Shown: positions 755 to 56,231 of the stretch, in pieces | How the letters are laid out: every line of letters starts with the position of its first letter | Numbering within the stretch: position 1 is the stretch's first letter | Origin: Zopfochytrium polystomum | Lineage: Eukaryota; Chytridiomycota; Chytridiomycetes; Chytridiales; Chytridiaceae | Assembly (NCBI GenBank): GCA_025765615.1 | Contig: JAIVFJ010000020.1 | Coordinates: forward strand, 372,001-436,000 | Direction of reading: 5' to 3' | Length of the DNA: 64,000 nucleotides | Translations under genes and position numbers: made by a program | The notes under the pieces: model-generated | Told to the model about the DNA's origin: nothing | Databases searched by the model: none | Seen by the model: only the letters and a program-made list of their open reading frames with translations

Positions 755-2264
755 TTATTCGCTATCCGACTCGTCCTGTTTGGACTGCTGCTGGGCCTTA
801 CGCGCGAGATACCGCGCACGAGCGTCCATGACCGTTTCCTCCGTGGCCTTTTTCGCCATCTTCGCGGCGACCGCGGCCAACTCTTCCTCCTTCCTCTTTG
901 CCGCTTTCGCCTCCTCCTCTGCCTTTTGCAGCAGCACCTCCTCCAACATGCGCGCGCTCTGCGCCTCCCGGACCCTCCGCGCCTCGGCCTCTCTCCTCCG
1001 CCGCGCCGCCTCCTCCTGCTGGCTCTTGCGCGCCTCCATCCGCGCCTTCTCCTCCTCCTCTTTTTCCTCTTGCAGGCTCTTGAGCTTGGTGCGGCTGACG
1101 TTCAGCCCGCGCGTCAGCAACCCGCGCTTGTCGACAATCTCCATCGAGTCGTTCAGCTTGACCTCGCCGGACCGGATCGCGGCTTGCAGCCGCTCCCGCT
1201 GCTCCTCCTCCTCTTCCTTTTGCCGTCGCTCGCGCTCGCGCGCGGCTTGAGCGATCTGCTCGGGCGTCAGTTTGGTCGCGCTGCCACGGTCGTTCGCGTC
1301 AAGCAGCTGCCGGTAAAACAGGGTCATGTCGCCTCCCTGCAACGCCGCTTTTGTTTGTTAATTAGTAAAACAACGAAGTGGGGGATCAGTTACAAAAATA
1401 CGTTGGAAACGTTCAGTTACCTTCTCGCATCCTCTCCTCCTCCTCCCTCCGCTTCAGGTCGGCCATCTTCTCCTTGTACGCCTCGGTCACAAACGCCTCC
1501 TTGTCGCCAAACGCGTCTCCCTCCGCCTCGCGCTCCCGCTGCGCCTTGCGCTCGTCCGCCCTCTCTAGCTCAATCTTTCGCTTCGCCGACGCCGCAATCA
1601 GGCTCTCCACGTACCGCGCCTTCTTCTTAACCGCTCCCCCCCCTCCACCCGCGTCACTCCCAGCGCCGCCGGTCCCGCCGGCCTCGTCGTCGCCAAGATC
1701 CCGCCGCCGCCGCGCCGCCGCCTCCGTCTCCTTCATCGCGTCGTACACCCCGTCGTAGTCAAACACCGTCGGGTCCTCCGCCAGCGCCACCGCGTGCTGC
1801 CGCTGCACCTTGAACGACGACGCCACCGCCGCCTGCACCTGCCGCACCTCGCGGTTCGTCCGCGTCCGCGCGCGGGCGAGCGCCGCTGCGGCGGCAGCCG
1901 AGGCCGACGAAGACCCGTCTGTCGTCAGCTCCGTGATCGCTTCAGAGTCGTCGTCGGCCCGTCGCCGCTGGGCCGATCGCCCGCTGCCGCCGCCGGGCTT
2001 CATCCACGGCGGCGCGTCGGCGTCGGCGTCGTCGTCGTCGTCGGCGGCGGAGGCCGCAAAGACGTCTGCGGCGCGGCCCTTGCGCTTCAAGGAGAAGCCG
2101 AGCGGCGCCGCCGAGGATTTGGGGGTCCCACTGTCCCCCGTGGAGGCGGCGGCGGCGGTGGAGAACGCATTTGGCGCCGCCTTTGAGGCCGGGAGGACGA
2201 GGCCAAACTTTTTTGGCGCCGGCGGGTGCTGTTGATGCTGCTGCTGCGCGGACGATGAGGACAT
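755..2264 (-). CDS. NSRP1: NSRP1-like nuclear speckle splicing regulator
   Basis: Two exons, 2264-1421 and 1332-755, are joined by an 88-bp GT-AG intron whose phase closes exactly. The predicted protein is about 472 aa. Near the N-terminus is KFGLVLP, the hallmark opening of NSRP1/CCDC55. A DUF2040-type core follows, with the motif DPTVFDYDGVYDAM, a charged coiled coil, and in exon 2 the conserved segment DMTLFYRQLLDANDR. The rest of exon 2 is Glu/Arg/Lys-rich coiled coil ending in an acidic tail. In animals the family is a nuclear speckle protein that modulates splice-site choice; the same role here is inferred. The start is the first ATG of the long frame. The product could also be listed simply as a DUF2040 protein. 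Confidence 0.85.
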
Positions 2265-17040: not shown

Positions 17041-17046
17041 AAACAC

Positions 17047-17366
17047 TGTGGAAGTCTCGGCGGGACTACCTACACCTGGCGGACGATGGGCGTGCGACCC
17101 CAGGTCTAACGTACGCGAGTTGAGGCAGTGATGACGACGACGGAGGACGAAACAGCGGTGGCACGGGAGTGGCGGAAGACGGAAGCGGGCCAGCACGGGC
17201 AGCACAAACAACGACCTTGTTCACGGGACCACTCAATGCAAACAAAGACAGAAAAGAGAGGAAAGAATATCGACAGCAAACTGGGACACAAGACCCTTCA
17301 ACAGGACCCTAAAAGAGGGAAATAGCCACTGAAGGGTGAACAAGGGAAGCAGCCGAAGCTTCCACA
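17047..17366 (-). repeat. 3' LTR of the gypsy element
   Basis: 320 bp with perfect 8-bp terminal inverted repeats TGTGGAAG...CTTCCACA. Compared with the other LTR it has one extra A (near 17,261) and one extra C (near 17,280). A clear polypurine tract next to its internal edge was not recognised. Confidence 0.93.
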
Positions 17367-17403
17367 TCTGGCAAACCCCAGAGCGGAGCGAAAGCCAGTG
17401 CCC

Positions 17404-18461
17404 TCACTGGTCACCCTCAAGGTCCAGCGCAAGAATGTCTGCGTCCAACAGCGCCGCTGGAAGCGCATCACCAGCCGCCAAGTCCTCCCTCTTCCTATAA
17501 AGCCGTACACGAGACCCCTGGATAGGTCGTCGAAGTGCAGAGCCATCCATCTCCGCCAGATAGTACGAGTTCGGCCCAACCTCCGTAACCCAAAACGGTC
17601 CAAAATACCTCCACTCGAGCTTTCCACCCATCGTGTTGTCCAACTTTGACTCCCGAACGATCACCAAGTCGCCTTCGTCAATGACCTCGGAAGTAGGCCG
17701 CATACGATGTTCCTGGTTGAACTGCTCAGCACGCTTCTCTCTTGCAGCAGCAATGCGCCGGCGGGCAAGTTCTACAAGCTCGTCCGTTCGTTCCAGCATC
17801 TCAATGCGCTTTGCAAGGAGCTCTGCTGACGTCATTCTGGCCCACCGCACAGATGACATCGTCTCGACAAAGTGTTCCACAGGGAGGACTGGGTCCTGAC
17901 AAAAGACCAACTGATAGGGGCTGAAACCTGTTGTAGCTGACGTGGTGCAGCGAGATGCATACAAAGCTGCAGGGATGTGAAGATGCCACTGGTTTGGGCT
18001 GTCCTTGCAAGACTTGGCAATCGCATCAACAATCGGCTTGTTGGCCCTCTCGACCTTCCCGTTTGCCTGTTGACCATATGCCATTGTCACTCGAACATGG
18101 AAACCCATACGCTTCGCCACGTTCTCCAGCTCCTGTCCATCCAGCTCACCACCATCAATCACAATCTCACGTGGAATCCCAAACCGCCCAAAGACCTTGC
18201 GTACAAGCGTTCGCACAATAGGTTCCGCCGTCTTCTGCTTAAAGGCTGCTGCCTCCACCCATCCTGAGATCTCGTCCACAAACAATGCCAAATATCGCCA
18301 AGGTCCAGACATCGTCACCAAATCCACATGCCACCTCTGGAACAGCGTCGCATGCAAGGACCCAGGTTGAACCTCGAGAGGCTCAAAGTACCGTGTCGGG
18401 TTGTACAATTCCATTGCGTTGCCACTGAAGCCCAACAACTCGTCGGAGCTGGCCTTTCAAC
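17404..18461 (-). pseudogene. Integrase (DDE core, zinc finger missing)
   Basis: The frame is shifted relative to the upstream pol frame and overlaps its end (18,383-18,461), with no ATG at its start. It encodes the rve core: WHVDLVTM (first Asp), VIDGGELDG (second Asp) and YGQQANGKVERAN (Glu), then a C-terminal region with WRYFGPFWVTEVGPNSYYL, typical of the gypsy GPY/F module. The HHCC zinc-binding domain that should lie between RNase H and the core is absent: pol ends FRRLKGQLRRVV and the integrase frame resumes at ELYNPTRYFEPLEVQ. A ~50-residue deletion with frame change is inferred. The catalytic core itself looks intact. Confidence 0.8.
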
Positions 18462-21400
18462 CGACGGAAGAGCAAACCACCCTCGAGTAAGTAAGAACTC
18501 GCCATGCGACGGACAGCGGCAGCCTCCACTGCAGGTAGACCACGAACAGAACCAGTCGCGAGCAGCCGATACACGTGCACCAACCGTCCTGAATAGCCCA
18601 AAGCATCCACCATTGCATCCACATCTCCTCGGTCAACTCCCAAAGGGCTCGAATCCGCCACACCTGGCACTTGCACAAAGGCCACGACAGGAACATGATC
18701 CGAACATCGTACCCACTCTATATGGTCTGCATCGACAACAGTCACAGACTTCGAAACGAAAATGGCATCGAAACGAAAACCCCAGTTGCTGCGTCGATCA
18801 GGGCGCCACCACGTAGTGTACGAAACTCGCAAAGGGTGAATCGCACGGAAGCAATCAGTGAACTCCGAAGAAAGGTCTGCAAACCATGAACGTTCCTCGG
18901 GGAGAAAGCCAGACGTAATCAGTCCGAGGAGTGAAGGGTGAATGTCGAGGTCAGTAGAGGAAACATTCCAATCAGCGCCAACAAGTAATGTCAAGCCAAG
19001 CCGTCGTAGGTCGCGCAATCGGTCCAAAAGAGCCTGACAGAATCGAAGCTTGTAAGGAATGCGGTGCTCGCGTCCACGAACAGCTGCTGGGCAATAAACT
19101 GACACCAGGACTGTTCCACCAAAGCGAACCTCGATATAGCGACCCTCCATCTCAGACTCACTCCAGCCTGGGAAACAATGGAGGACACTGTCTGGGGTAT
19201 CACATCCAAACACACCACGCCGCACCAAAATCCCAATTCCATTCCGGCCAATCTCTGCAGGAACCTCCGAAGGGAATGGGACATCCCAACCATTGTGTGA
19301 CTGGAGAAAGTCAAAGCCAGCCACCTTCGAGAATGCAGTCCGCGCCAGTCGAGTCTCTTGGAGAAAGACTATATCGTATGAAAGGGCAAGAGCAGCGAAA
19401 TCGGCAGACTGACGTACAGCAGACCTGACTGAGTTCACGTTCCATGACATCACAGTGAGTCCACGCTGCAAGGAAAGACCAAGGACTTCATCAACATGAT
19501 CCTCCAAATTGTCACCGTTGTTGGAATCCTCCCCATCACTGTCCAACTCACTCTTTCGACTCAGCGCATCAGCAACCACGTTATGCGTCCCCTTGATGTG
19601 TCGGATCGAAATGGGGTTGTACGACCGAATTGCAAGAAGCCAACGTTGTGTTGTTGCATCCAGTGTGTCAGGTTTCGCAATAGCACCGAGAAGTGCCCGA
19701 GCGTCTGTCTCCAGAACAAACTCAGCACCATGAACATGCTGATGAGCAGCCTGAAGCGCCCTCAACGTCGCCAACACCTCACGCTTGTGCTGGTCATAAC
19801 GTCGCTCCACTTTGTTGAACCGCCCTGACAAGAAGAGAACTGCATACCGTCCCGAACCCTCGTCATCATCCTGCCCCAACCACGCACCCCACCCAGTTGG
19901 TGAACCATCAACAGTCACATACAACGTCTTCGTGTAGTCGGCGTCGCGAAGCACAGGGTCTGATGAGATCGCCTCAGCAAGGTCCTTCTTCGCCACTTCA
20001 ATCGCGTCAAGATGATTCTCGATGTGGACACCACGCTTCATGACCGTATACAGAGGGTCTGCACGCTCTGCAAACCGAGGAACGTACTGCCGGAAAAACG
20101 TGGCTAGGCCAGAAAACGATCGGACATCTTTGACTGACTTCAACGCACCCCACTGAAGCAACTTCTTCGACTTCGCCCAGCCAGGGGATCGACCTTTGTC
20201 ACTGACGTGGTGACCAAGGATATCTGCCTCCCGTACACAAAACCTCGACTTCGTTCCTGACAGCGTCACCCCACACTCCACCACACGATCCAGGACACGG
20301 CCAATAAGTTGGATATGCTCCACCACAAAAGCACGACAGCCAAACTTGTCAACAGAACGGTCTGCATGGCGAACCTTCGGACCCTTCAGCACATAATCGT
20401 CCAAGTACGGATGGCAGTGAAGTGGAATGAACGGCTGCAAAATCTTCACTGACGCTCGCTGAGCAATGGAAACTGAATTTGTCCACCCCTGCGGCAACGT
20501 GACCATTCGCATCAGCCCAAGTGGTGTCTCAATCGCAGTCAGATCACGGCTGGCTGGGTTGAGAAGGAACTGGTCATAGAACGAATGGCAATCCAAGGGT
20601 GAGTAAATAGCGCATCCAGTGTATTCTTCCACGATGTCGTTAATGCGTGGCGGAATGTTAGCATCGCGAATGGTGACTCTGTTCAGTGGCTGTAGATCCT
20701 GAATGAAGCGAATTCCTCCATCCTTCTTTGGAACTACGAAAAACGACGCAGAGTACGGACCAAAACACGGCTCCATGATCCCAGCATCCAACTTTGCCTG
20801 AAGAAACTCGATAATCTTAGCCAACTGAGCGTACGGGATCTTCCGCGGCCGAAACTTCCACGGAGTATGCTCGATAGTGTTGATGACAATGGGCTCGCAA
20901 ATCTCCGGCCTCACCATCCCACGCTCCTCCAGCATGAATGAAAACGCCTCCGGAGTTGACCTTAACGTATCTCGTAGCAGCTGCTGCTCCGAGACTGATA
21001 GCCAATCAGCGTCCGAGCAAAGTAGATCCATCCGCTCATCTGTCAGCGCTGCCAAAGCCTCCTCGCGCGTACGACGTTGTCGAGGCCCCCGCCAAGCTGC
21101 AGGAGCTGACCCGTCAAGCGGAGCCAAGGCAGGCCGGACCTTCCGAGCAACTGGCTTGTACATCGTTTGAACATCAACTTCGCGATATCCAGCACTGCCT
21201 ATCGACTCTCCCATCACCTCCGCATAGCACGCCCGAAGCAAATCGAAATCTGCGGGGCAGTCGACAACTCCATTGCGTTGTAACTGCAGTCGCAATCCCC
21301 AACACATCCTCTGTCGATCGGCTCCTTGAAATCTCCAGCACTGAATCGATGCGCTCGCCAGGGCCAAGCTTCCCTGCACGCCGCAATCGACAAGAAAGTC

Positions 21401-21475
21401 CACGTACAGGTTGATGCGACGTCGCTGTCCAACCTCCAAGATCACTGACAACACCAAGCTCCGACGACAAAACAT
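18383..21475 (-). CDS. pol: Pol: reverse transcriptase, RNase H, EEP endonuclease
   Basis: One uninterrupted frame of 1030 codons. Residues ~190-410 are RT: FFVVPKKDGGIRFIQDLQPL, SPLDCHSFYDQFLL, and the catalytic YLDDYVLKG at residue 357. Residues ~530-655 are RNase H (VTVDGSPTGWGAWLGQ, KREVLATLRAL, ETDARALLGAI, HIKGTHNVVADALSR). After an acidic linker, residues ~674-940 form a complete exonuclease-endonuclease-phosphatase domain of the ExoIII/APE1 type: VMSWNVNSVR, IVFLQET, GRYIEVRF, LVSVYCPAA, LLVGADWNVS, RFDAIFVSKS and CSDHVPVVAFV supply the Asn, Glu, Tyr, Asp/Asn, Asp and Asp-His catalytic set. The C-terminus leads toward integrase but breaks. Such endonucleases belong to non-LTR elements; here one sits inside an LTR polyprotein. 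The first ATG may not be the true start, since pol is usually cleaved from a longer precursor. Confidence 0.92.
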   Translation of the reverse strand: MFCRRSLVLSVILEVGQRRRINLYVDFLVDCGVQGSLALASASIQCWRFQGADRQRMCWGLRLQLQRNGVVDCPADFDLLRACYAEVMGESIGSAGYREVDVQTMYKPVARKVRPALAPLDGSAPAAWRGPRQRRTREEALAALTDERMDLLCSDADWLSVSEQQLLRDTLRSTPEAFSFMLEERGMVRPEICEPIVINTIEHTPWKFRPRKIPYAQLAKIIEFLQAKLDAGIMEPCFGPYSASFFVVPKKDGGIRFIQDLQPLNRVTIRDANIPPRINDIVEEYTGCAIYSPLDCHSFYDQFLLNPASRDLTAIETPLGLMRMVTLPQGWTNSVSIAQRASVKILQPFIPLHCHPYLDDYVLKGPKVRHADRSVDKFGCRAFVVEHIQLIGRVLDRVVECGVTLSGTKSRFCVREADILGHHVSDKGRSPGWAKSKKLLQWGALKSVKDVRSFSGLATFFRQYVPRFAERADPLYTVMKRGVHIENHLDAIEVAKKDLAEAISSDPVLRDADYTKTLYVTVDGSPTGWGAWLGQDDDEGSGRYAVLFLSGRFNKVERRYDQHKREVLATLRALQAAHQHVHGAEFVLETDARALLGAIAKPDTLDATTQRWLLAIRSYNPISIRHIKGTHNVVADALSRKSELDSDGEDSNNGDNLEDHVDEVLGLSLQRGLTVMSWNVNSVRSAVRQSADFAALALSYDIVFLQETRLARTAFSKVAGFDFLQSHNGWDVPFPSEVPAEIGRNGIGILVRRGVFGCDTPDSVLHCFPGWSESEMEGRYIEVRFGGTVLVSVYCPAAVRGREHRIPYKLRFCQALLDRLRDLRRLGLTLLVGADWNVSSTDLDIHPSLLGLITSGFLPEERSWFADLSSEFTDCFRAIHPLRVSYTTWWRPDRRSNWGFRFDAIFVSKSVTVVDADHIEWVRCSDHVPVVAFVQVPGVADSSPLGVDRGDVDAMVDALGYSGRLVHVYRLLATGSVRGLPAVEAAAVRRMASSYLLEGGLLFRRLKGQLRRVVGLQWQRNGIVQPDTVL

Positions 21476-22376
21476 CCGTCCAGTTTGTCTCCTCCCAATC
21501 CAACTGATCCGTCATCGTAATAAATCAGCGCCGACCAAGGCCTATCGAAAACGTGAGGGAAACGAGAAAGGGCGGTGGCAAACCAGTCAAAAGCTGTCGC
21601 GGAGGTGGCAAACCAGTTCGAAACCTTCGGGGTCGGCGATAAAGCCGCAGATCTGATGCGGTCACAGCTGCCACCCCCAGCTGGGAAAGGGAGAGCGATG
21701 CCCCGCGGGGTCTGGGACGCTCCAGGCCCGAAAATGAGGATATGAAGTGGTGTACGCGATGAACTGCTCCCAGTCGTTGCAGGCAGATGCAACGACACGA
21801 CTCTCAGCGACGGCAGTGACGACAGCGATGCAGCGACGACAGCGCGGCGGCGGTGCGGCGACGGGGCAGCTCGGCGGAGCGACAATGGCACGGCAACGAC
21901 ACCGTAGCAGCGACGACGAAACGGTGGCGACCGCGGAAACAGCGGGCGGCGCAGCAGCGGCGGCGGGAGAGCAGAAGAGAGCACGGGACTGTTACTGAGA
22001 CAAACGACCAAACAAAAGGGGGGGAAAAATCAAACAATTCCCGAAACAATTCCGCTCCTGCACCCGTGAAATCCGCCTCTTCCAGCGAAAAATGGTGCAA
22101 GAGAAAAAAAACCATAAAGGTGAACACGACGGAACGGTGAACGCGAAACGTGGTCCCCAAGCAGTTGGTCCTGCAAGAAAACCCAAGAATCAAACACCAC
22201 GACCAGTTCACTCGAAGTCGGGAAGGAGTGAAAAAGAGGGAACCAGTGGAACCGGAGTGCCCGGAGGAAACCACTAACCCTTCGAGCAACATAGAAAAGG
22301 AACAGAAGAGAACATAGGGGAGAAAAAACATTCTAAGGGAAACCCACGTGGGCAGAAAAGAAAGCACTGCATAAGC
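21476..22376. other. Internal gypsy spacer without a coherent frame
   Basis: About 0.9 kb between the protease remnant and the RT frame. Overlapping minus-strand frames are Arg/Ser/Pro-rich and do not match a retroelement domain. A short frame from 21,515 (MTDQLDWEETNWTDV) may be the original start of the downstream product in another frame. This could be an untranslated spacer or a decayed linker. Confidence 0.4.
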
Positions 22377-22800
22377 TCAATGTGCCTCTTCAGTTGCAAC
22401 CTCACTTGGCACTCGCTTATATCCTCGCGTTCTTACCAGAGCACGATGACCTGGGTTAAGAGGAGAGGTCATCTGAAACCAAAGTGTATCGCCTTCACGA
22501 ATGAACTGTCCATGCACATAGTCAATGAAATTCTGTCCGAGAAGAAGTTCGGAACGGAGTCCGCTGGTCCGACTGTGACGGAACAATGAAGCAGTGAAGA
22601 TAACCCCGTACACCCTGGATATCGAAAGGCACAGCCTGCCAGACGGGTGAGCTCACGGGTCTCCCCATGCACTGATCCTCATACGGATAGGGTATGATCC
22701 AGTCGAACAGGAGTCCTGAATAGCGTCGAAAATAGAGTCAGGACACCACACTGACCTGCGAACCAGAGTCGATGAGTGAGTCAATCACTGTCAGCTGCGT
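22377..22800 (-). pseudogene. Retropepsin-like protease, interrupted
   Basis: Directly downstream of gag in a different frame is VIDSLIDSGSQVSVVS, the aspartic protease active site (DSG) with the usual hydrophobic flanks, followed at once by an in-frame TGA. After a further frame change near 22,615 comes LLLGQNFIDYVHGQFI, the C-terminal strand motif (LG..FI) of retropepsins. As sequenced it cannot be read through without two shifts, though the gag-to-protease step itself could be a programmed frameshift. Confidence 0.75.
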
Positions 22801-25212
22801 CGTGCCCTGGACCAAGGACAATGGTTGGAGCACGCGGGCAGATAGAAACAACTGGGCTGCCACCCAGTGGTAGTGATTTCGAGGGCATGGTGGTGGTCAT
22901 CTGCAGCTTGCTTCATACAAAAGACTGAACTGACTCCGGCCCGAGCAACAGCAGCCTCCACCTCCACTGCACGGTCGATTGACTCGACCACCCCGTAGAA
23001 ACCACATTCAATTGGCGCCTTTGATTCAACCACTGCGGCTGACTCCAACACCGTTGGAGCTGGGCCTGTCACAGCCTGCATACGACCCCCGAGCTGCTTG
23101 TGTGCAAGAGTCCTTACGCCTGGTGAAATGGCAAGGACCTCTCGAAGCGTCAAGGTGAGGGTGCCATCAAGCACCTGTTCGAAAATCTTTGCATAGTCCT
23201 CATCTCCTCCAGCAAGCGGAAAGACTCTGATCTGCTTCGCCTTCTCCTTCTTCTCTCCGTCAATCTCCATCGTCTTCTCCTTTTGCGCCTTCGTCTTCTT
23301 CCGTGACGAGCTGGGTGGAGCTGGGTCGGGTGGAAGACCTGGCACTGGCAAGCCATGGGGAGCCACCACAGGAGGCTGAAGATGAGGAAGCGGGCGGAAC
23401 ACAGGTGCGGCGGGGGCAGGTGTGAATGACGGATCTGGTGCAGCTGGCGCAGCAACAGCTGCAGGCTGTGGGAGTACCGATGATCGTGGCCCGAAGCTCG
23501 CCCCTCCACTTGAACCCTTCACCTTCTTGGGAACAACTGACTCCTCCCCACTTGCTGGCGGCCAAGCCACATCCAGATCCCGTGCACGCTTTGCCATGAG
23601 AGAGTCCACATGTTTCGGCAAAAGTCGTCGCTCCAATACCCCTTGCACAATGTCCGCCGCTCTGAATGAAAGGCCTACTGGGTCAATGGAAAGAGAGGCA
23701 AGATAGTCGAGAACTTCCAACTTCCCAATATCCTGGTCGGCCTCAAAAGTTGCGGAGAACACGTCAGGCGTTACACCGAGGAGTGGGAACGAGCTTCCTG
23801 CAGCCTCATCTGCCTCACTCGCATCGCTGCTGTCCCCATCGTCAAACACAATGAGAGTGCTTCCGTCAAGCGGAAGTGCTGACACTTCGTACATGTGCGA
23901 CGCAACTGCTGGTGGAGGGGCAACAACATCAATAGGCCGCCCAAGCTGACGCATACGATCCCGAACCACCTTCCGAGCGCCATGGATAGGGTCACCAGGA
24001 ACCTCATCGCCCATCCCCCTTCGCCCGTTATCCCCAATCCTGACCCAATGAATCCTCTTCGTTCGTCTGTTCAACACCACTTCAGCACCTGCCACCTCGT
24101 CGTCCTGCAATGCATCACAGTTTGCACGATGATGCCCACGCTCCATGCAATACCAGCAGCGTACTTGCGACACGTCAATAGCATCCACGTCGGCAACCTC
24201 AAACACTGTCGAAACTGTCGGTACCTTCGGGACGTTCTGATGTTGGATATACTGCTGCATTGCAATGGTGAGGTCGCGAAACATCTTTGTTAGGTCAGCG
24301 ACTTCGGCCTGAGAAGCCGCCGGGTGTCTGGGAGGCGGCAGCTGCGGAGGAACAAATGAAGGCAGAGCAAAAGACGGCAAGGGCTGCGGCGGCGCCAGCA
24401 CAGACGGAACAACAGGAGCGGAAAAGGTCGGCGCCAAAGGGACTGTCGCACTCGGCATGTACGGGTAGAAAGCCGGGTTCTCCCGTGTCGGACCAGAGTG
24501 CCGTAAGTTCAGAAAGGCGCCGAAAGCTCGCTTCAGCTCGTCGAGCGTGATGTCCTCCGTCGTCGTCAGGAGTCCGTTGAAGGCCACCCCAGGGGGAGCA
24601 GCAGTCATGGACGCAGTCGGCACTACAGGAGATGACGCTCCGCTAGTGGCTCCCGAGCCTGCAGCTGCAGCTGCTGCACGTGACGCTGCTGCCTGTACAG
24701 CCGCCATCGATCGCATGTTGGCCACGTTCTGGCACACTGACGTGTACGTAAAAGGGTCCATCGCACTAAGGAAGAGCCGGACAAGGTCGGAGTCCGTATA
24801 ATGGGAGGGGTTCGCCATCTCCGACCGCATCCTCTCCAAATTGCCAATGGCGCCTTCCCAAATCGGAGCCCAAGTCGGAGCGGCTCGAAGCGTTATAACG
24901 AAGCGCTGGATGTCTTCATAAGTCGTCGGTGGCGACATGTGTCGGTACGCTGCAAGGACAGCCTCGCGCAAACCCTCGACTGTCAATGTCGCCGTCCTGG
25001 TCACGCCACGCCTGTGCAACCTGCTGCGCATGCGAATGCTCAGGGAAAGCAGCGTCGATGATATAGCGAACGACCTCTGGTTCGCGATACTGGGCTGCCG
25101 TCGCGGCCATCCTCCCGACGTACAACCTCAACTGTTTTCCCCACTCTCTCACATGACGCTCATCAAACACCGGGACCCCATGCTGAGTAAACTGGATCGG
25201 AGTACCCGCCAT
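22791..25212 (-). pseudogene. gag: Gag with CCHC zinc knuckle, one frame change
   Basis: Begins at the ATG at 25,212 (MAGTPIQFTQHGVPVFDE). The frame must shift once near 25,000, where QVAQAWRDQDGDI in one frame continues as VEGLREAVLAAYRHM in the next. The remaining ~730 residues are open. They include an alpha-helical capsid-like region, an Ala/Pro-rich stretch, and a single zinc knuckle CWYCMERGHHRANC (CX2CX4HX4C). The protein binds element RNA and assembles particles in this family. The frame closes in protease-overlapping sequence at 22,791. Confidence 0.8.
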
Positions 25213-25462
25213 CCTGGCAGATCTGCGCACCTGCGGCGATGGGGGCTGGGTCCAAAAACGTGAGGGTGTGACAGATGGGTCCCGTCGTGGCGCCTTGCTG
25301 TGTCAGCTCGCTGTCGCTGTGTCGACTCCCTGTCTACTGGTCGCCTCGCTCTGTTGGCTCGCAGGTCAGGACTCGTCGGCTTCCTGTCTCCGTGTCGTCC
25401 TCTGCGTCGTCCGCTGTGTCGAGATCTCGCTGTTTGCTCACTCTGTCGGCTCGTTCAGGTTG

Positions 25463-25497
25463 CGACCTTGTCGCAACCCAAAACCTGGCACGCTCGA
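25463..25497 (-). other. Hairpin next to the 5' LTR (primer-binding zone)
   Basis: Immediately inside the 5' LTR the minus strand reads GGTTGCGAC-AAG-GTCGCAACC, a perfect 9-bp inverted repeat with a 3-base loop. A standard tRNA primer-binding site beginning TGG directly at the LTR edge is not seen. The hairpin sits where priming should occur, but its role is unknown. Confidence 0.5.
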
Positions 25498-25815
25498 TGT
25501 GGAAGTCTCGGCGGGACTACCTACACCTGGCGGACGATGGGCGTGCGACCCCAGGTCTAACGTACGCGAGTTGAGGCAGTGATGACGACGACGGAGGACG
25601 AAACAGCGGTGGCACGGGAGTGGCGGAAGACGGAAGCGGGCCAGCACGGGCAGCACAAACAACGACCTTGTTCACGGGACCACTCAATGCAAACAAAGAC
25701 AGAAAAGAGAGGAAGAATATCGACAGCAAATGGGACACAAGACCCTTCAACAGGACCCTAAAAGAGGGAAATAGCCACTGAAGGGTGAACAAGGGAAGCA
25801 GCCGAAGCTTCCACA
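25498..25815 (-). repeat. 5' LTR of the gypsy element
   Basis: 318 bp, identical to 17,047-17,366 apart from two one-base deletions. Ends are TGTGGAAG...CTTCCACA. A canonical TATA box is not evident. Confidence 0.93.
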
Positions 25816-28260
25816 ACACACTTTTTAGTCCGCCAGTCTGGGTAAAAACCAACTTCCCACACCGCGAGCCCCATGTACATGCAGGGAGCTCCTCTAATAC
25901 CAAAACCTAGCTTTTGGTTCATGTACCCTCGAATTTCTGTGGTTGACCAAGCAGGCGCCATGCACGCACGCAGCCCAGACCCCACACAGGGAGTCCAATT
26001 ACAAACTAGAACGTATGCACGACTTGCGGTCACAGCAAGGAAGCAAAGGTCCTCCCGAGGACTTGCTAAAAAGCACACAAACTCACCTCACAAATGGGCA
26101 AAAGCATAACACTGGCAGGGATTTGTCCCTTGTTGTCTGTCTTTGAGTGTCATCTCTGATGGGCTCTGTCGCCCACACTGGCAAACCTGTGTGAGATCTC
26201 CTCTTCATCTTCAGGGGCTCATCTATAGTCTAGTGGCAAAAGGGAGAAGACTAGTCTTTAAGATGGGAAGATAGTCGTTTAATAGCTTCGCACTTTGCAA
26301 CGCACCAGAATTCCCATACACTCTGTTAAAAGACAAGGTACTCACTGCCCTCGTCGTATTTCAAATCAAAATTACGACACAAAACCGCCATGCAATAATC
26401 ACCCTGCGCGCAGCGACCAGAACAGGAGCGGGGCGTTCTTTGCGGTGGGCGTTGATGGCCGTTGTCTGTCAAACAGAGCACTTGCCAAATGAGGAAAGAG
26501 CCTTGTGAGACTGTGCTCTCTAACTCCTCACCTAGGGCTATAGGTGGAAACTAGAGCATGGACCTAAATACCAATCCTGACTAATGAAAAGGGGCAAAAG
26601 GAGGGTGTCTAGGGGCACTAGACAGGAAAGTATATTTGGAGTCTTAAAAAGCCCAAGAAAAACACAAATAAATCTCTAACACAAAAGAGGGGTTTCTCAC
26701 ACCAAAGCATGAAACAGACACAATCACAAAAGAAAGCATAATCCTCTGGTGCAAGACACAGAAGGGTTTCATCTGGGGCACAAGGCCAAAGCCAAGTTAG
26801 ACCAGAGACAGAACCGACTTGATCGGTAAGACCGACTGAATCGGTAAGGGGAGTGGCAAGCCACTACAACCCATCAAAAGAAACAACAAAAGAAATAAAC
26901 AACAAGTCAAACCCTGAGTTGGAGGGGGTTGGAGAGACAAAGGGCAGACACAAGGAACAGTTAGTGTGCAGAGGTGCCTGTTGAACCAAATCAGAACTGT
27001 TTTCCACTTAACAGAACCAGGCACAACTTGTCTCACTCCAAGGAGAGTGTTCCAACTCAATCCAAGGAAGAGGGTGCAACCAGGGTGGGAGACAGTGGGA
27101 CTCTTCTTGCTCCATCCTACCAGGAGACAGACCTCTGCCTCACCAGGCCAGAGAGAATAACCTGTCTTAGAAGCAAGGAAGGTCAATACCCACTCCCACA
27201 CACAAGGAAGACACCAAAGACAACCACAGGTATTAGCATGAAAGGAAGAGGGTCTGAACCCAGCGAACCAGGCCCACCAAAGGCCAAAGGAACCATCACC
27301 AGGGACAGAGAGGAATACCAGAGAGACCATACCACCACATAATACCTGACCAGCCAACTCATTCATATCACCTTGAGAGACCTGGATTTGAAGTGATGTA
27401 TTGACAGGAACCGGCGAGGCACTACCACAGTTTTACCCTCCCACCGTCCATCATCAAGTAGCTCCTACCCCAGACCAGCCTAAACAGTATGTGCAGAATG
27501 GTGAGGTGCACTGGGACTTGAACCCAGCACACTGCCATAAATGGCCAAGAGAACCAATTCTCCTGTCACACACCAGGGGACTGCCACCCCCAGCTCATAC
27601 ACACAGTCAGAGAAGGAATAAGGGCAGGCAAGAAGACTTCAGGTACAGGTTCTAAGGGGCAACAAGAATGGGGGTGGGCTGCTTAAATAGGAGAGGGTTG
27701 GAATCAGCAGGGTGAAGGAAGAAGGAAGGGAAAAGAGGGGAAAACATATACAAAAGAACAAAACAATAAATAAAACAACAAAGAAGAGAGAGGAGGAGTG
27801 AGTCACCAAACAATGGGGCTGAGCCATCAAACAAGGAAGACAGCTCAGAAAATCATGGAGCATTTCTTGGCATCAGCTGCCAAGAAAGATGGAGGAGATG
27901 GAGAGAGCTGGTTGGTGCAAAGAGGAAGACAGTCACTCACAGCCACAAAAGAAAAGAGAGACACACACAGAGACAACAAACAAACAAATAAATAAAAGAT
28001 AAAACAGTAAAAACAGGAAAAACAGGATAAACTACTAATTGAAAAAATAAGTAAAAATCATCAATAAAGAAAGGAGAAAAAACCCTATGATCTCATACCC
28101 TTTCATGAGGCCTTTCATCATGGTAGCTTATGATGCAGCTCTGTGTTAGCTCTGTGTACACCTGGACTCTGTACTTCTACCCACTGAAGCACATCATCCG
28201 AATCCATTTCCAAAAGTGAGGGGAGCAAGGCTTAGTCATTGTGCAGAACTTAGCATTTCT
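25816..28260. other. Gene-poor, AC/AG-rich DNA
   Basis: No frame longer than ~190 codons and no recognised domain. The text is rich in short A-rich words (for example AAACAACAAAAGAAATAAAC near 26,880 and 27,960-28,060) and tRNA-like promoter fragments (near 26,225 and 27,511). It is probably accumulated old non-coding elements. Confidence 0.5.
27505..27600 (-). repeat. tRNA-like T-arm/B-box relic
   Basis: On the minus strand CTGGG-TTCAAGT-CCCAG (27,511-27,527) makes a perfect 5-bp T-arm with a 7-base loop and contains a B box GGTTCAAGTCC. It is followed by TGCACCTCACC, like a tRNA acceptor 3' strand. The 5' half does not fold into a good D-arm or acceptor stem, so a SINE head or tRNA relic is more likely than a functional tRNA. 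Confidence 0.5.
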
Positions 28261-35215: not shown

Positions 35216-36648
35216 AGATATTATTCCTATTCGACGGCTCGCTCGTCCTATTTGGTTTAACCGCTCAACTCATTCCTCTTCGAAAAAAAAAACCCCCGAA
35301 AACAACTTAGTTATACCTGAAGGACGCCGGCAGCTCGTCGGGCACGTTCCTGAACAACATGCGGCTGAGCCCGTCCGGCAAAATGAGCCGACCGTACCCG
35401 CTTCGCGACGGCGACGTCATCCAGCTGGGCATGGACTACCAGGGACGGCCCGAGGGTGAGTGCGAGAGTGTGGAGAATTTTATGATTTTTTTCCCCTTCC
35501 CTTTACTCTGTTTCTGACCGCGAACAAACTACACACACGCACGCACGCAATATAGACATTTTCAAGTGCATCGTGTTCAAAGTGACGCTGATTTCGGGCA
35601 ACGCGATCATGCAGCGGAAAAAGGAGAACCCGGCACGGTAAGAAGAATAAGAAACAAAAAAAAAAAAGAAAAAAAAGAAAACACTTGCTCGCGCCTACTT
35701 AACACTCTCTTGTTTCCCCTCTCCCCGAACTATTTACAAAACTCACTCAACACACACAACACCAATCCAACTCCCACAAACCTTAAAAAAAAAAAAAAAA
35801 AAAGCTTCCGCCAAGCTCTCCGCATGCTCCTCAACGCCACAAACCCCTTCTCCACCGCCGCCCCCTCCGCCGCCCCGGCGCTACACGTCCACCTCCACAA
35901 CCCAAACCCCTTCCCCACCACCACCACCGCACCTCCCGCCCTCCAAACCCCCACCACTTCCACCATCACCCCAACCACCACCACAACCGCATCCGCATCC
36001 GCAGCCGCAGCCGCCGCCCAAGCCCAAGCCCAATCCGTCGACTGCTGCATCTGCCTCTGCACCATCGGCCCCTACCAAGCCCTCTTCCTCTCCCCTTGCT
36101 CCCACTGCTACCACTACAAATGCATCAGAAACCTCCTCGAGTCCACACACATGTTCCAGTGCCCCATGTGCAGGCAGGTCGCGAACCTCGACGCGTCCGT
36201 GTCGATGGAGAGCTTGTTTGATGCTGCGGCGGCCGCGGCGGCGGCCGGCGGCGGCGGGGCGGGAGAGGGGGGGAGGAGGGGGTCGGCGGCGGCGGGGGAG
36301 GACGAGGACGAGGAGGACGAGGACGACGAGGTGGTGCTGGCGATGGCGGCGGTGGATGCGGCGACGGGGTGGGGGGCTGGCGGCGGGCCCGCTGGGGCGG
36401 GGACGGGGGGCACGGGGGCGAATGGCGAGGAGGAGGAAGGCGCGGAGGAGGAGGGGGACGAGGAGGACAAGGAGCCGCCCGTCATGAACGAGGAGGAGCG
36501 CGCGGACGTGTCGCTCGGGAACTTGGCGCGGCGCGGGCGTGGCGCGGCGGCGGCTGGGGGTGGGGCGGCCGGGACGGCCGGAGCGGCGGGTGACGCCGAG
36601 GGACCGGCTGTGCAAGGGGCGGGGGCGCGGACGACGCGCGGGCGGTGA
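34267..36648 (+). CDS. Dma1-like FHA-RING E3 ubiquitin ligase
   Basis: Four exons (34267-35043, 35311-35455, 35556-35637, 35805-36648) close in phase to 615 aa. A long Ala/Ser-rich N-terminus precedes a forkhead-associated domain: LKIGRKVRV, FKSKVVSRAHAEIWLKDGQ, then LKDAGSSSGTFLNN and RDGDVIQLGMDYQG. A RING-HC finger follows after a His/Thr-rich linker (CCICLCTIGPYQ, CSHCYHYKC, CPMCRQ). The C-terminus is acidic and Gly-rich. FHA plus RING is the Dma1/Dma2/Chfr arrangement; those ligases bind phosphothreonine targets and restrain mitotic exit and septation, which is inferred here. The third intron ends in a run of about 18 A's directly before the AG. Confidence 0.9.
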
Positions 36649-53627: not shown

Positions 53628-56231
53628 CTACTTTGTCGCCTGCCTCGCCAGCGCAAAGTTCGACCCGACCGGCCCCACCACCTCAAACTCGAGCGCAAAC
53701 GAAACCTCCCCGCCCGCGGGCACGTCGCACACGTACTCCATGTTGCCGCTCTTCTCGCCGCCCGCGTACCCCGCCCACCGCGCCACTACCCCCGTCCGCG
53801 ACCGCCACCTCGCCGCGCACCGCCTCGCCGCTGGCCGCAACCAGCTTCGGCTGCCGCAGCACCACCCGCATCCCCGTCGCCTCCGCGTCCAGCACCGGAA
53901 GCGACTCCTTGACGTGCAGCCGCGGAACTGCGCTGCGCCCGCGGTTCTTGACCGTGAACTGCGTCTCGTACTGCTTCGTCTCCACCCGCGCTGCGTACGC
54001 CGACGCCGGTGCGGGGAGCGTCTTGACCGTGTCGCGGTGGTGGATGCGAAGGGACGGGTCCACGCCGAGCGAGCAGCTGAAGTAGTCGTTCAGGTTCACG
54101 TGCTGACGTGTTGTGTGTGTGCGTGTGTGCGTTTCACGCGTGGAATTGGTGTTAGCGACGGCAAGGAGAGGTCCCGAACAAAAAAGTGAAAAAGAGATAA
54201 ACAAAAGGCACCTTGATTTCGGACGAATTGACAAAATCGTCATCCAAGAAAATGCTTACGGGACCGGCGAACAGCTGGTATCCCGACGTGTTCCGAACTT
54301 GACACTGCGGATTTGAGAAAGGCGGGACAATTCAAAAAAAAAGGGCGACCAGGAATTTAAAGGCAATATGTCTGAACAAACCTCCATAAACACCACTCCG
54401 GGCGACACGTGAGGCACAGCAAACCAGCGGACGAGCGACTCGCACTTGAACGACGCGATGGTGACCTTGTGCGTCGAATCATCGCTCGCAATGGTGGAAG
54501 CGCCCTCGATCTTGAACACGCCGCCGACGGCCTTGTCGGTGAGCACCGTGGCGGGGGTCTCAAACTCCACCAGCTCCACCGGCGCAGGTTCCTGGGCGCC
54601 CGCCTCGTCTTCGACGAAATCAAATTCATCCGCTGCTGGCACTGCCCCCGCATCCCGCGACTCGCCTCCTGCGGTCGGTCCACTTCCAAACAGCGGCGTT
54701 GCTTCCGTTGCCGGTGCCGCTGCTGAAACCGCCGGTGCTCCAAACGAAAAGGACGGTGCTGCCGCGGGTGGTGCCGCGGCGGCGCCGAACACACCACCCG
54801 TGGAGCCAAAGCCGCCGCCGGTGGATCCGAACGCGCCGCTGCTTGAGCCAAATGCATTTGTAGAGGGCTGAGCGGCCGGCTGTGCGTTCTGAGCCGCACC
54901 TCCAAAAGCGCCTCCCCCGCCAAAACCAAACCCAGCCCGGGGAGCTTGGTTCACGTTGCTATTGGAGGACCCGAACAACCCTTGGTGCTGCTGCACCACC
55001 ACCGTCGTCGACTGCACCGCCTGCTTCTGCGCAAAGGTGCCCTTCGCCTGAACGTTGACGCGGGCGTGGCGCGGTACGCCCGTGGTCTTGGTCGTCGTGA
55101 CCGTCGACAGGGCCAGCGCGCAGTTGTTCCAGTCCTCTCCCGTCGTCTGCGAAATGACGGCCTTGAAGCTAATGTCGACCGCGCGCGTCGGCTTGCCGTC
55201 GACGGTCGAGACGCGCATGTCGTACGTTGGAGACAACCGGATCGACGGGCTGACGCAGCAGTACACCATGTCGAGCTTGACGGTGGTCGCCTCCTGCGCG
55301 TGGAGCACCGCCGACACGCGCACGGTGCACTGGCTGCGGTTGGACACCCGCCGGCTGTTCTTGCGGTTGTACTCGTTGATCTTTTGGTCCACCTGCGCAA
55401 TCTCCTCGTCCAGTTTGAGAAGTCTGTCGGCCATGGCGTTGCCGCGGCCGTCGAGAAGGTCGACAAACTGGAGAATGTCGTCGATTTTGGATTTGTCGGC
55501 CTTGATCGAAGATCCAAAGTCCAGGACCGCCTTGATCTGACTCTTGAGGACGCTCTTTTTCGAAAGCAGCTGAGCGTGCTCGGCCTCCAGCTACGCATTC
55601 GAGTTTTGCGAAATCACGCCTGGTTAGTTTCGTGCAGAAAAACCAAGAGAAAAAAAGAAGAAAAAACAAAAAAAAAAAAAAAAAAAAAGGCTTGTGCGCT
55701 TCACCTCTTTCAGCTCCTGCGACTTTTCGGAGGGCCCTAGTTCGAATCCACCGATGGATTCTGGGGGATGATAGATGACGTCGGAGATCACGACGGGACG
55801 CACGCCCTTTCCGCGGACGCGCAAGCGATCTCTGTCCATGCATGAAGGCTGGGGATGGGCGTTGTTGGTCAGGGGGAATAGAAAAACAAGTCTAAGCGGG
55901 CTTCTTCTCTGCACACACACACTCGCTGCTTCGCTCCGACCACAGCTGCTGACGCACACACGGACGCACCGGACACACGCACTCAGACACACGCACGCAC
56001 ACTCACCCTCACGGATGCTCACAAGCAGACACAGACACTAAAGGCTCTCACCAGGTTTGAAACTTCGACGCGGGTGGTTCCAGGGGCCAGCTGGAGGGGA
56101 AAGGAGCGCGTGACGACCGCGCTGCCCTCGGGAAAGACGGTGACGGCGGCGACGTTGGTGTCGCGCGCGTCGAGCTCGATGACGGTTACGGGGGCGGCGG
56201 CGGCGGCGGCGGTGGCGGCGGTGGCGGACAT
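53628..56231 (-). CDS. DUF4139/DUF4140 protein with FG-rich insert
   Basis: Five exons (56231-56052, 55848-55705, 55590-54382, 54304-54212, 54102-53628), about 700 aa. The N-terminus has the DUF4140 signature (VTVFPEGSAVVTRSF, then PGTTRVEVSNL and MDRDRLRVRGKG). A coiled coil follows (LEAEHAQLLSKKSVLKSQIK), then the DUF4139 beta domain (SPSIRLSPTYDMRVST, ISQTTGEDWNNCALALST). A ~110-residue Phe-Gly-rich insert (FGSTGGGFGSTGG, FSFGAP) splits DUF4139. The C-terminal part resumes with YQLFAGPVSIFLDDDFV, FSCSLGVDPSLRI and ends FALARQATK. In the last exon a G5 run at about 53,790 breaks the frame; with four G's it reads on to the stop codon. Function of the family is unknown (the bacterial name mucoidy inhibitor A is historical). 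Confidence 0.87.

Follow-up and report, generated by a model that had tools for sequence, protein, structure and literature searches.

Long terminal repeat (LTR) retrotransposons are thought to need only reverse transcriptase (RT), RNase H (RH), protease and integrase (IN) as enzymes, and the endonucleases of long interspersed nuclear elements (LINEs) drive target-primed insertion without an integrase. Our analyses of a 64,000-nucleotide stretch from the chytrid Zopfochytrium polystomum (contig JAIVFJ010000020.1, positions 372,001 to 436,000; hereafter the window, whose own positions are used throughout) revealed a Ty3/gypsy LTR retrotransposon with an additional endonuclease-exonuclease-phosphatase (EEP) domain, complete and of the ExoIII/APE1 type, inside pol. 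We refer to the lineage of this element as clade A and to a second, distant lineage of EEP-bearing elements in the same genome as clade B.

Captured enzymes in LTR elements are known (articles given here by PMC number are cited for excerpts of their text). dUTPases are borne by the bdelloid elements Juno, Vesta and TelKA, by retroviruses and by fungal LTR retroelements (PMC5408684, PMC2774666), at positions that vary among LTR elements (PMC5408684); the dUTPase is a nucleotide hydrolase, whereas the domain described here is an ExoIII/APE1 nuclease. The DEDDy-type exonuclease of bdelloid LTR elements (PMC5408684) resembles it as a captured nuclease shared by unrelated element types, but is a separate ORF3 of another nuclease fold, whereas the EEP fold lies inside the pol polyprotein. 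In KnitGypsy-Dnmt3 (PMC5890265), as here, a cellular enzyme is fused into a Gypsy pol with its key residues kept (Ka/Ks<0.2 in that element), but the enzyme is a methyltransferase, not a nuclease, and the host is the charophyte Klebsormidium nitens. An orchid Gypsy element carries a captured host AlkB/2-ODD enzyme whose activity was tested in vitro (PMC9289625); this RNA demethylase occupies an open reading frame (ORF) of its own, unlike the pol-embedded EEP. In Kuafuorterviruses, Exo_endo_phos is described as "only present sporadically" and as maybe host-derived (PMC11673190); those are an animal lineage, whereas the domain here is conserved, selected and found at set places in two Ty3/gypsy clades. 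A fungal screen assigns Exo_endo_phos to the LINE order (PMC10799480).

Two further comparisons bear on what the element and its domain are. The APE-type endonucleases of LINEs are like the gypsy EEPs in fold, in a catalytic centre that is kept and in changed positions for recognition of apurinic/apyrimidinic (AP) sites; the window element itself has LTRs, an integrase core and 4-bp duplications, and is not an element of the LINE type. Relative to family 1 of ExoIII/APE1, the gypsy EEPs are alike in profile, fold and catalytic residues, but their AP-recognition residues are replaced and the domain is fused to RT-RH and integrase. No report of an EEP in a fungal Ty3/gypsy pol was recognised in the accessible parts of the open literature, with subscription papers and most preprints outside this scope. 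New beyond an initial annotation of this DNA are the arrangement with EEP before RT, the distant clade B and the replacement of AP-recognition residues.

The window element comprises the following features:

17047..25815, minus strand: Ty3/gypsy LTR retrotransposon, 8769 bp, with 4-bp flanks ACAC at 17043-17046 and 25816-25819
25498..25815, minus strand: 5' LTR, 318 bp, TGTGGAAG...CTTCCACA
22791..25031, minus strand: gag ORF, 746 amino acids; CCHC knuckle seen by eye (CWYCMERGHHRANC); DUF4100 match under the cut-off
22400..22800, minus strand: protease region, DSGSQ motif seen by eye; its pieces lie in different frames, broken in the window copy
18383..21475, minus strand: pol ORF, 1030 amino acids, RT-RNase H-EEP
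20204..20734, minus strand: reverse transcriptase, residues 248-424, YLDD at 357-360
19619..19939, minus strand: RNase H, residues 513-619
18674..19456, minus strand: ExoIII/APE1-type EEP domain, residues 674-934
18405..18440, minus strand: lesion; H2C2 zinc module missing, frame changed relative to the sister copy C104
17404..18438, minus strand: integrase core ORF, 344 amino acids; rve at residues 34-120; D, D and E read as WHVDL, VIDGGE and GKVERAN
17047..17366, minus strand: 3' LTR, 320 bp

The two LTRs are identical in 318 of 320 alignment columns, with two one-base gaps and zero substitutions, and end in TG..CA (TGTGG..CCACA). The ACAC flanks form a 4-bp duplication, which is weak evidence alone because the flank is CA-rich. 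Pfam assigned RVT_1 to residues 248-424 (58.7 bits, cut-off 29.6) and RT_RNaseH to residues 513-619 (69.8 bits, cut-off 24.8) of the 1030-residue frame, and rve to the integrase ORF (36.3 bits, cut-off 32.6); it reported no H2C2 zinc domain in the window copy. The pol order is RT-RH-IN with gypsy-type RT and RH, and with IN in a second frame. The initial annotation had described the 1030-codon ORF with RT, RNase H, EEP and the YLDD motif as found here, without stating its strand, which is minus, and the EEP motifs that it listed are present in the frame. It had also placed a DDE integrase core in that frame; this does not hold for the window, where the core is a separate ORF; the sister copy C104 has RT, RH, EEP, H2C2 and the IN region in a single frame. 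Under a simple base-composition model, the chance of a stop-free frame is ∼3e-5 for the EEP part and 8e-18 for all 1030 codons. The sole duplicated-sequence candidate for the zinc-module lesion, a 17-bp 94% match at 21264-21280, was taken as chance. No tRNA primer site starting with TGG was found beside the 5' LTR, a variable feature not used against Ty3/gypsy membership, and no self-priming match of at least 8 bases was found within the LTR. No clear polypurine tract was seen ahead of the 3' LTR.

Profile searches assigned residues 674-934 to the EEP superfamily, in agreement with the initial annotation. Specifically, Pfam Exo_endo_phos matched residues 676-927 over profile positions 1-225 with 60.9 bits (cut-off 24.5; E 2e-16), and the NCBIfam profile TIGR00633 (xth) matched residues 674-933 with 127.7 bits, above its curated cut-off of 99.05. 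The putative LINE endonucleases of the same genome score ∼60 bits with xth, below the cut-off; the truncated proteins P0005 (94.8) of Chytriomyces confervae and P0009 (95.7) fall slightly below it. All 56 matches at E<=10 in a sequence search of the PDB with the window EEP were ExoIII, APE or Crc, and the closest folds were those of AP endonucleases and of Mth212, which its PDB title describes as a DNA uridine endonuclease. LINE endonucleases were not among the 50 structure matches listed, which was not used as evidence. In a structure prediction of the whole pol the EEP was unfolded, with a predicted local distance difference test score (pLDDT) <50 from residue 642 onward, probably because relatives with the EEP ahead of RT could not be aligned. 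The profile, the PDB matches, the fold and the best tree (below) point to an EEP of the ExoIII/APE1 rather than the LINE type. By fold and profile we regard it as a divergent member of family 1, but we do not class it functionally as an AP endonuclease.

A search of the organism's own genome (80.16 Mb in 761 contigs) revealed further copies of the window's lineage, and a comparison set beforehand as the test for a one-off insertion found the EEP in C104, C241, C153, C55, C79 and C143, and absent from C88. C104, 80% identical to the window, reads RT-RH-EEP-H2C2-IN in one open frame of 1435 amino acids; its rve match of 28.2 bits lies under the Pfam cut-off of 32.6, with D, D and E still readable, and no LTR pair of at least 80 bp was seen in its 9.9-kb surroundings. 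C241 is a 99.1% copy of the window element that continues through the EEP with shifted frames until the contig edge. C88, 98.5% identical over 5.1 kb, has lost the EEP together with ∼60% of the IN ORF, and ∼130 bp of different sequence lie at the junction. In the decayed relative C153, the EEP follows RT. The remaining three, C55, C79 and C143, have the order EEP-RT-RH-H2C2-IN (N-type) and are 99.98-100% identical over 8.3-8.6 kb. Their frame has 1416 amino acids at C55 and C143 and 1235 at C79, where the IN match switches frame. At C55, the element lies between LTRs of 1976 and 1977 bp with zero mismatches and is flanked by a CCGT duplication; a Pfam search of C55 gave no rve report, and its D, D and E are readable. 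H2C2 is above the Pfam cut-off in C104, C55, P0042 (below) and the clade-B loci C40 and C77, and rve is above it in C40 and C77.

Relatives were also found in other genomes. A search with the EEP region gave four matches among 7994 scored candidates, of which two, P0005 of Chytriomyces confervae and P0004, carry RT, RNase H, EEP and H2C2; a second search (three matches among 947) added P0008 and P0009. All four of these N-type proteins have the EEP ahead of RT and all four have H2C2; P0005 and P0009 are without the first 30-40 EEP residues, and the P0009 EEP is slightly below the Pfam cut-off. A search with the RT region gave 78 proteins, including P0042 of Obelidium mucronatum, which, like Chytriomyces confervae, belongs to the Chytriomycetaceae. 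P0042 has the window order (RT fragment-RNase H-EEP-H2C2-IN) in a gap-ridden gene model in which only H2C2 exceeds the Pfam cut-off; its EEP was identified by BLAST and by a profile built from the remaining gypsy EEPs (184 bits). Among the 75 proteins P0010-P0084, some of them partial and with an EEP in another ORF possible, only P0042 matched the EEP profile. Scans of viral contigs with P0004 and the gypsy EEP alignment, and of genome contigs with the gypsy EEP alignment, gave no relative. Seven proteins of the liverwort Riccia sorocarpa, without an EEP (P0010, P0011, P0013, P0015, P0018, P0021 and P0024), are among the closest RT relatives of the window element (41-44% identity); horizontal transfer and foreign DNA in the assembly are both possible.

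Clade B (C40, C77 and kin) has the order RT-RH-linker-EEP-H2C2-IN, with EEPs 27-36% identical to that of the window. The xth profile gave 141 matches in the genome, 31 of them above the cut-off, which by EEP likeness comprise 25 of clade B, five of the window's group and one probable host APE1 (C103). Frames were read at eight of the 25 clade-B matches; seven (C40, C61, C13, C8, C24, C259 and C77) join the EEP in frame with RNase H and/or integrase, and the eighth, C49:72599, is a 253-residue piece with the EEP alone. Near-identical sets are present, with five EEPs of one subfamily 99-100% and five of another 97-100% identical. Upstream, C40 has a protease-like DSGS motif; at C40 and C61 the open frame has 3741 amino acids and may run from gag to integrase as a single frame. 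The putative LINE endonucleases belong to a repeat family with at least 150 matches (e.g., C12:535990-536760), near-identical at most places, and two of them match L1 ORF2 chains in the PDB besides ExoIII/APE1.

Phylogenetic trees were built from RT (70 of 80 matching proteins, with 10 short ones, including P0042, left out), from IN (45 of 64 rows, by length limits) and from RT+IN (31 chosen rows). In a further RT tree, a 100/100 branch separates clades A and B; on the side of clade B lie plant, fish and fungal elements without an EEP and the EEP-less family of the organism's own genome. Within clade A, N-type elements form one clade (100/99) and mid-type elements another (100/100). All clade-A EEP carriers are joined at 91/68 (RT, the 70-protein tree), 99/88 (IN) and 83/74 (RT+IN), with P0014, EEP-less in its ORF, as their nearest neighbour in all three trees, and likely, though not firmly, form one group by these sequences.

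The EEP trees included, besides the mobile EEPs, 33 of 80 prokaryote loci and three of eight viral ones in the first tree, 24 of 80 and two of eight in a further set, and 10 of 80 and one of eight in the second tree, in which C136 was not among the rows. Clade-A EEPs form one clade (100/100), as do clade-B EEPs (99/99), and the two are together at 70/93, a value by which a common source is neither shown nor excluded. In the second tree, mid-type EEPs are nested weakly among N-type EEPs (84/76 and 89/89), and a single N clade was not rejected (approximately unbiased [AU] test, p 0.38). Both EEP clades are nested among prokaryote-type ExoIII and do not group with the probable host APE1 (92/95, not firm), and two putative LINE endonucleases stand apart from the gypsy EEPs in the best tree on their own 100/100 branch. 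The initial annotation had left open capture of a cellular or of a LINE-derived nuclease. Capture from a source of the cellular type is supported; a LINE origin is disfavoured by the ExoIII/APE/Crc matches in the PDB, the low xth scores of the LINE enzymes and the separate tree position, and is not formally rejected, as the AU test did not reject a single clade of all mobile EEPs (p 0.44). Most likely, the EEP entered clade A once and then changed place in pol; clade B gained its EEP by a second capture or by exchange.

The EEP is clearly, as judged from coding-sequence comparisons, under purifying selection like that on integrase or somewhat weaker. Between the window and C104, the ratio of nonsynonymous to synonymous substitution rates (dN/dS) was 0.050 (RT), 0.085 (RNase H), 0.063 (EEP) and 0.086 (IN); these ratios are rough because dS was 1.3-2.3, highest in the EEP. 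The proportion of nonsynonymous differences (pN) was 0.132 for EEP, 0.131 for IN, 0.072 for RT and 0.106 for RNase H, compared to 0.225 and 0.176 for the linkers adjoining the EEP. Between C40 and C24, pN was 0.097 for RT-RH, 0.141 for EEP and 0.094 for H2C2-IN, and 0.299 and 0.261 for linkers. Identities of the window to the four N-type proteins were 36-45% (EEP), 38-54% (RT), 32-43% (RNase H) and 32-36% (IN).

To describe individual positions we use APE1 numbering, mapped onto the gypsy EEPs through the alignment. N68, E96, Y171, D210, N212, D283, D308 and H309 are conserved across these domains, the exceptions being N68 in the gappy P0042 and unfilled cells. With the EEP dN/dS given above, these eight positions bear out the initial annotation's view that the catalytic residues are retained for a selected function. 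At the positions of AP-site recognition the picture is different: all 13 gypsy EEPs compared have A or S in place of N174 and F, M or L in place of W280; at F266, the eight clade-A EEPs all have T and those of clade B have W. The window EEP has A, T and F at N174, F266 and W280, respectively, and lacks the AP-recognition residues. The probable host APE1 C103 has N at 174 and W at 280, and the putative LINE endonucleases have A and S. As the prokaryote loci were found by patterns containing the W280, Y284 and H215 positions, conservation there is inflated; W at 280 is also present in C103, 8ka3 and 5j8n, none of which was picked by such patterns. In APE1, Trp280 displaces the helix and thereby favours flipping of the abasic sugar, R177 is named for stabilising the flipped-out AP site, and L1-EN, with Ser at the Trp280 position, does not cut abasic sites (PMC8565326). 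The pattern of residues suggests that the gypsy EEPs resemble LINE endonucleases in having retained the cutting centre but lost the AP-site lock.

We consider it on balance probable that the EEP is a captured, selected accessory nuclease, no longer AP-specific, that acts beside a normal integrase. An accessory role is the best reading, since C104 and C55 have intact integrase parts and both insertions examined have integrase-type ends; the EEP as a replacement for integrase was rejected, the integrase parts being kept. It is most likely not directed at AP sites, given the substitutions at N174 and W280 and, in clade A, at F266, alongside an unchanged catalytic centre. In the mechanism we propose, the EEP would be cleaved from the polyprotein and travel in the virus-like particle with RT and integrase as a Mg2+ phosphodiesterase, and it would most likely cut or trim ordinary or primer- or end-containing DNA rather than AP sites. 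It could quite possibly process the reverse-transcription product, by primer or flap removal or 3'-end trimming, and so leave clean ends for integrase. Among substrates, we would rank maturation of complementary DNA (cDNA) ends and primers first, repair second and nicking third; there is a slim chance that the EEP serves a step other than processing, nicking or repair.

Several observations weigh against an accessory nuclease that has lost AP specificity. The window copy is defective, with the zinc module lost and the protease frames broken; C88 lost the EEP, along with most of IN in the same deletion; and constraint on the EEP is weaker than on RT. At 10 of 10 loci checked, the genome's largest gypsy family is without an EEP, indicating that the EEP is no general advantage; the best 150 RT matches of 886 candidates all score alike and represent one near-uniform gypsy family, often with an open frame of 1255 amino acids. 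R177 is kept in seven of eight clade-A EEPs, and Phe, Met or Leu at the W280 position is still bulky. N174 is not strict in cellular enzymes (13 of 14 in the tree set; in a crude count N 61, S 11, other 13), and product complexes of APE1 N174A, N174D and N174Q with abasic DNA are listed by PDB title, so that loss of N174 alone need not stop AP cleavage.

These last residues bear most directly on cDNA repair, in which the EEP would still be an AP endonuclease (or, like Mth212, a uridine endonuclease) that clears abasic or uracil lesions from the cDNA of the element, much as dUTPase protects the cDNA of retroviruses. R177, the TIGR00633 score above the cut-off and the nearest folds are consistent with repair, and the EEP between RH and IN, or ahead of RT, mirrors the variable dUTPase positions in LTR elements (PMC5408684). 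The replacement of N174 and W280 in all 13 gypsy EEPs and the Thr at F266 throughout clade A, where C103 keeps N and W, nevertheless make repair unlikely. Relative to nicking, repair gains a little weight from the retention of R177 in clade A and from the variation at N174 among cellular enzymes.

Rather improbable is a LINE-like nickase, by which the EEP would nick chromosomal (or cDNA) strands and open a second, target-primed or nick-assisted insertion route. The kept catalytic core and changed AP recognition match the putative LINE endonucleases, with their A at N174 and S at W280. However, complete LTR ends, TG..CA and 4-bp duplications are seen at both insertions that were examined, as integrase would produce, H2C2 and readable D, D and E are present in C104 and C55, and H2C2 is found in all four N-type proteins. 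The second integration route, a role that the initial annotation had suggested, is not needed, because these ends and duplications are those that integrase leaves.

That the EEP is a functionless passenger hitchhiking in pol is very improbable: C88 lost it, and C153 and C241 are among decayed copies, but its dN/dS is 0.063, its pN is below that of the adjoining linkers, the catalytic positions are kept at 36-45% overall identity and the domain is present in recent near-identical copies. The chance of an assembly artefact or nested cellular-gene insertion in the window copy alone, which the frame breaks near the EEP might suggest, is negligible: the order is shared by C104, which lies on a different contig, and by Obelidium mucronatum, so that a one-off insertion or assembly error is rejected, and the clade-A EEPs form one 100/100 clade.

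A wider scenario is put forward tentatively. Ty3/gypsy elements may have acquired an ExoIII/APE1 nuclease at least twice, in two distant lineages of one fungal genome, with the enzyme turning, in parallel to LINEs, into a non-AP-specific nuclease or nickase for some step of insertion or cDNA maturation, and with the domain moving within pol in one lineage. A selected nuclease in pol, found in two distant lineages and in two positions, suggests that some LTR elements carry out a DNA-processing step better with their own enzyme. EEP-bearing gypsy elements blur the textbook division into LTR elements that use integrase and LINEs that use APE. The parallel change in AP recognition is directly testable with purified domains.

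Two minor observations concern other genes. The window also contains host-like ORFs with NSRP1_N (1413-2264, minus strand), a RING finger (35566-36648, plus strand) and DUF4139 (54256-55434, minus strand). P0006 (591 amino acids) fuses an ExoIII-type domain to the palm and thumb of DNA polymerase beta and is possibly a one-protein base-excision repair enzyme.

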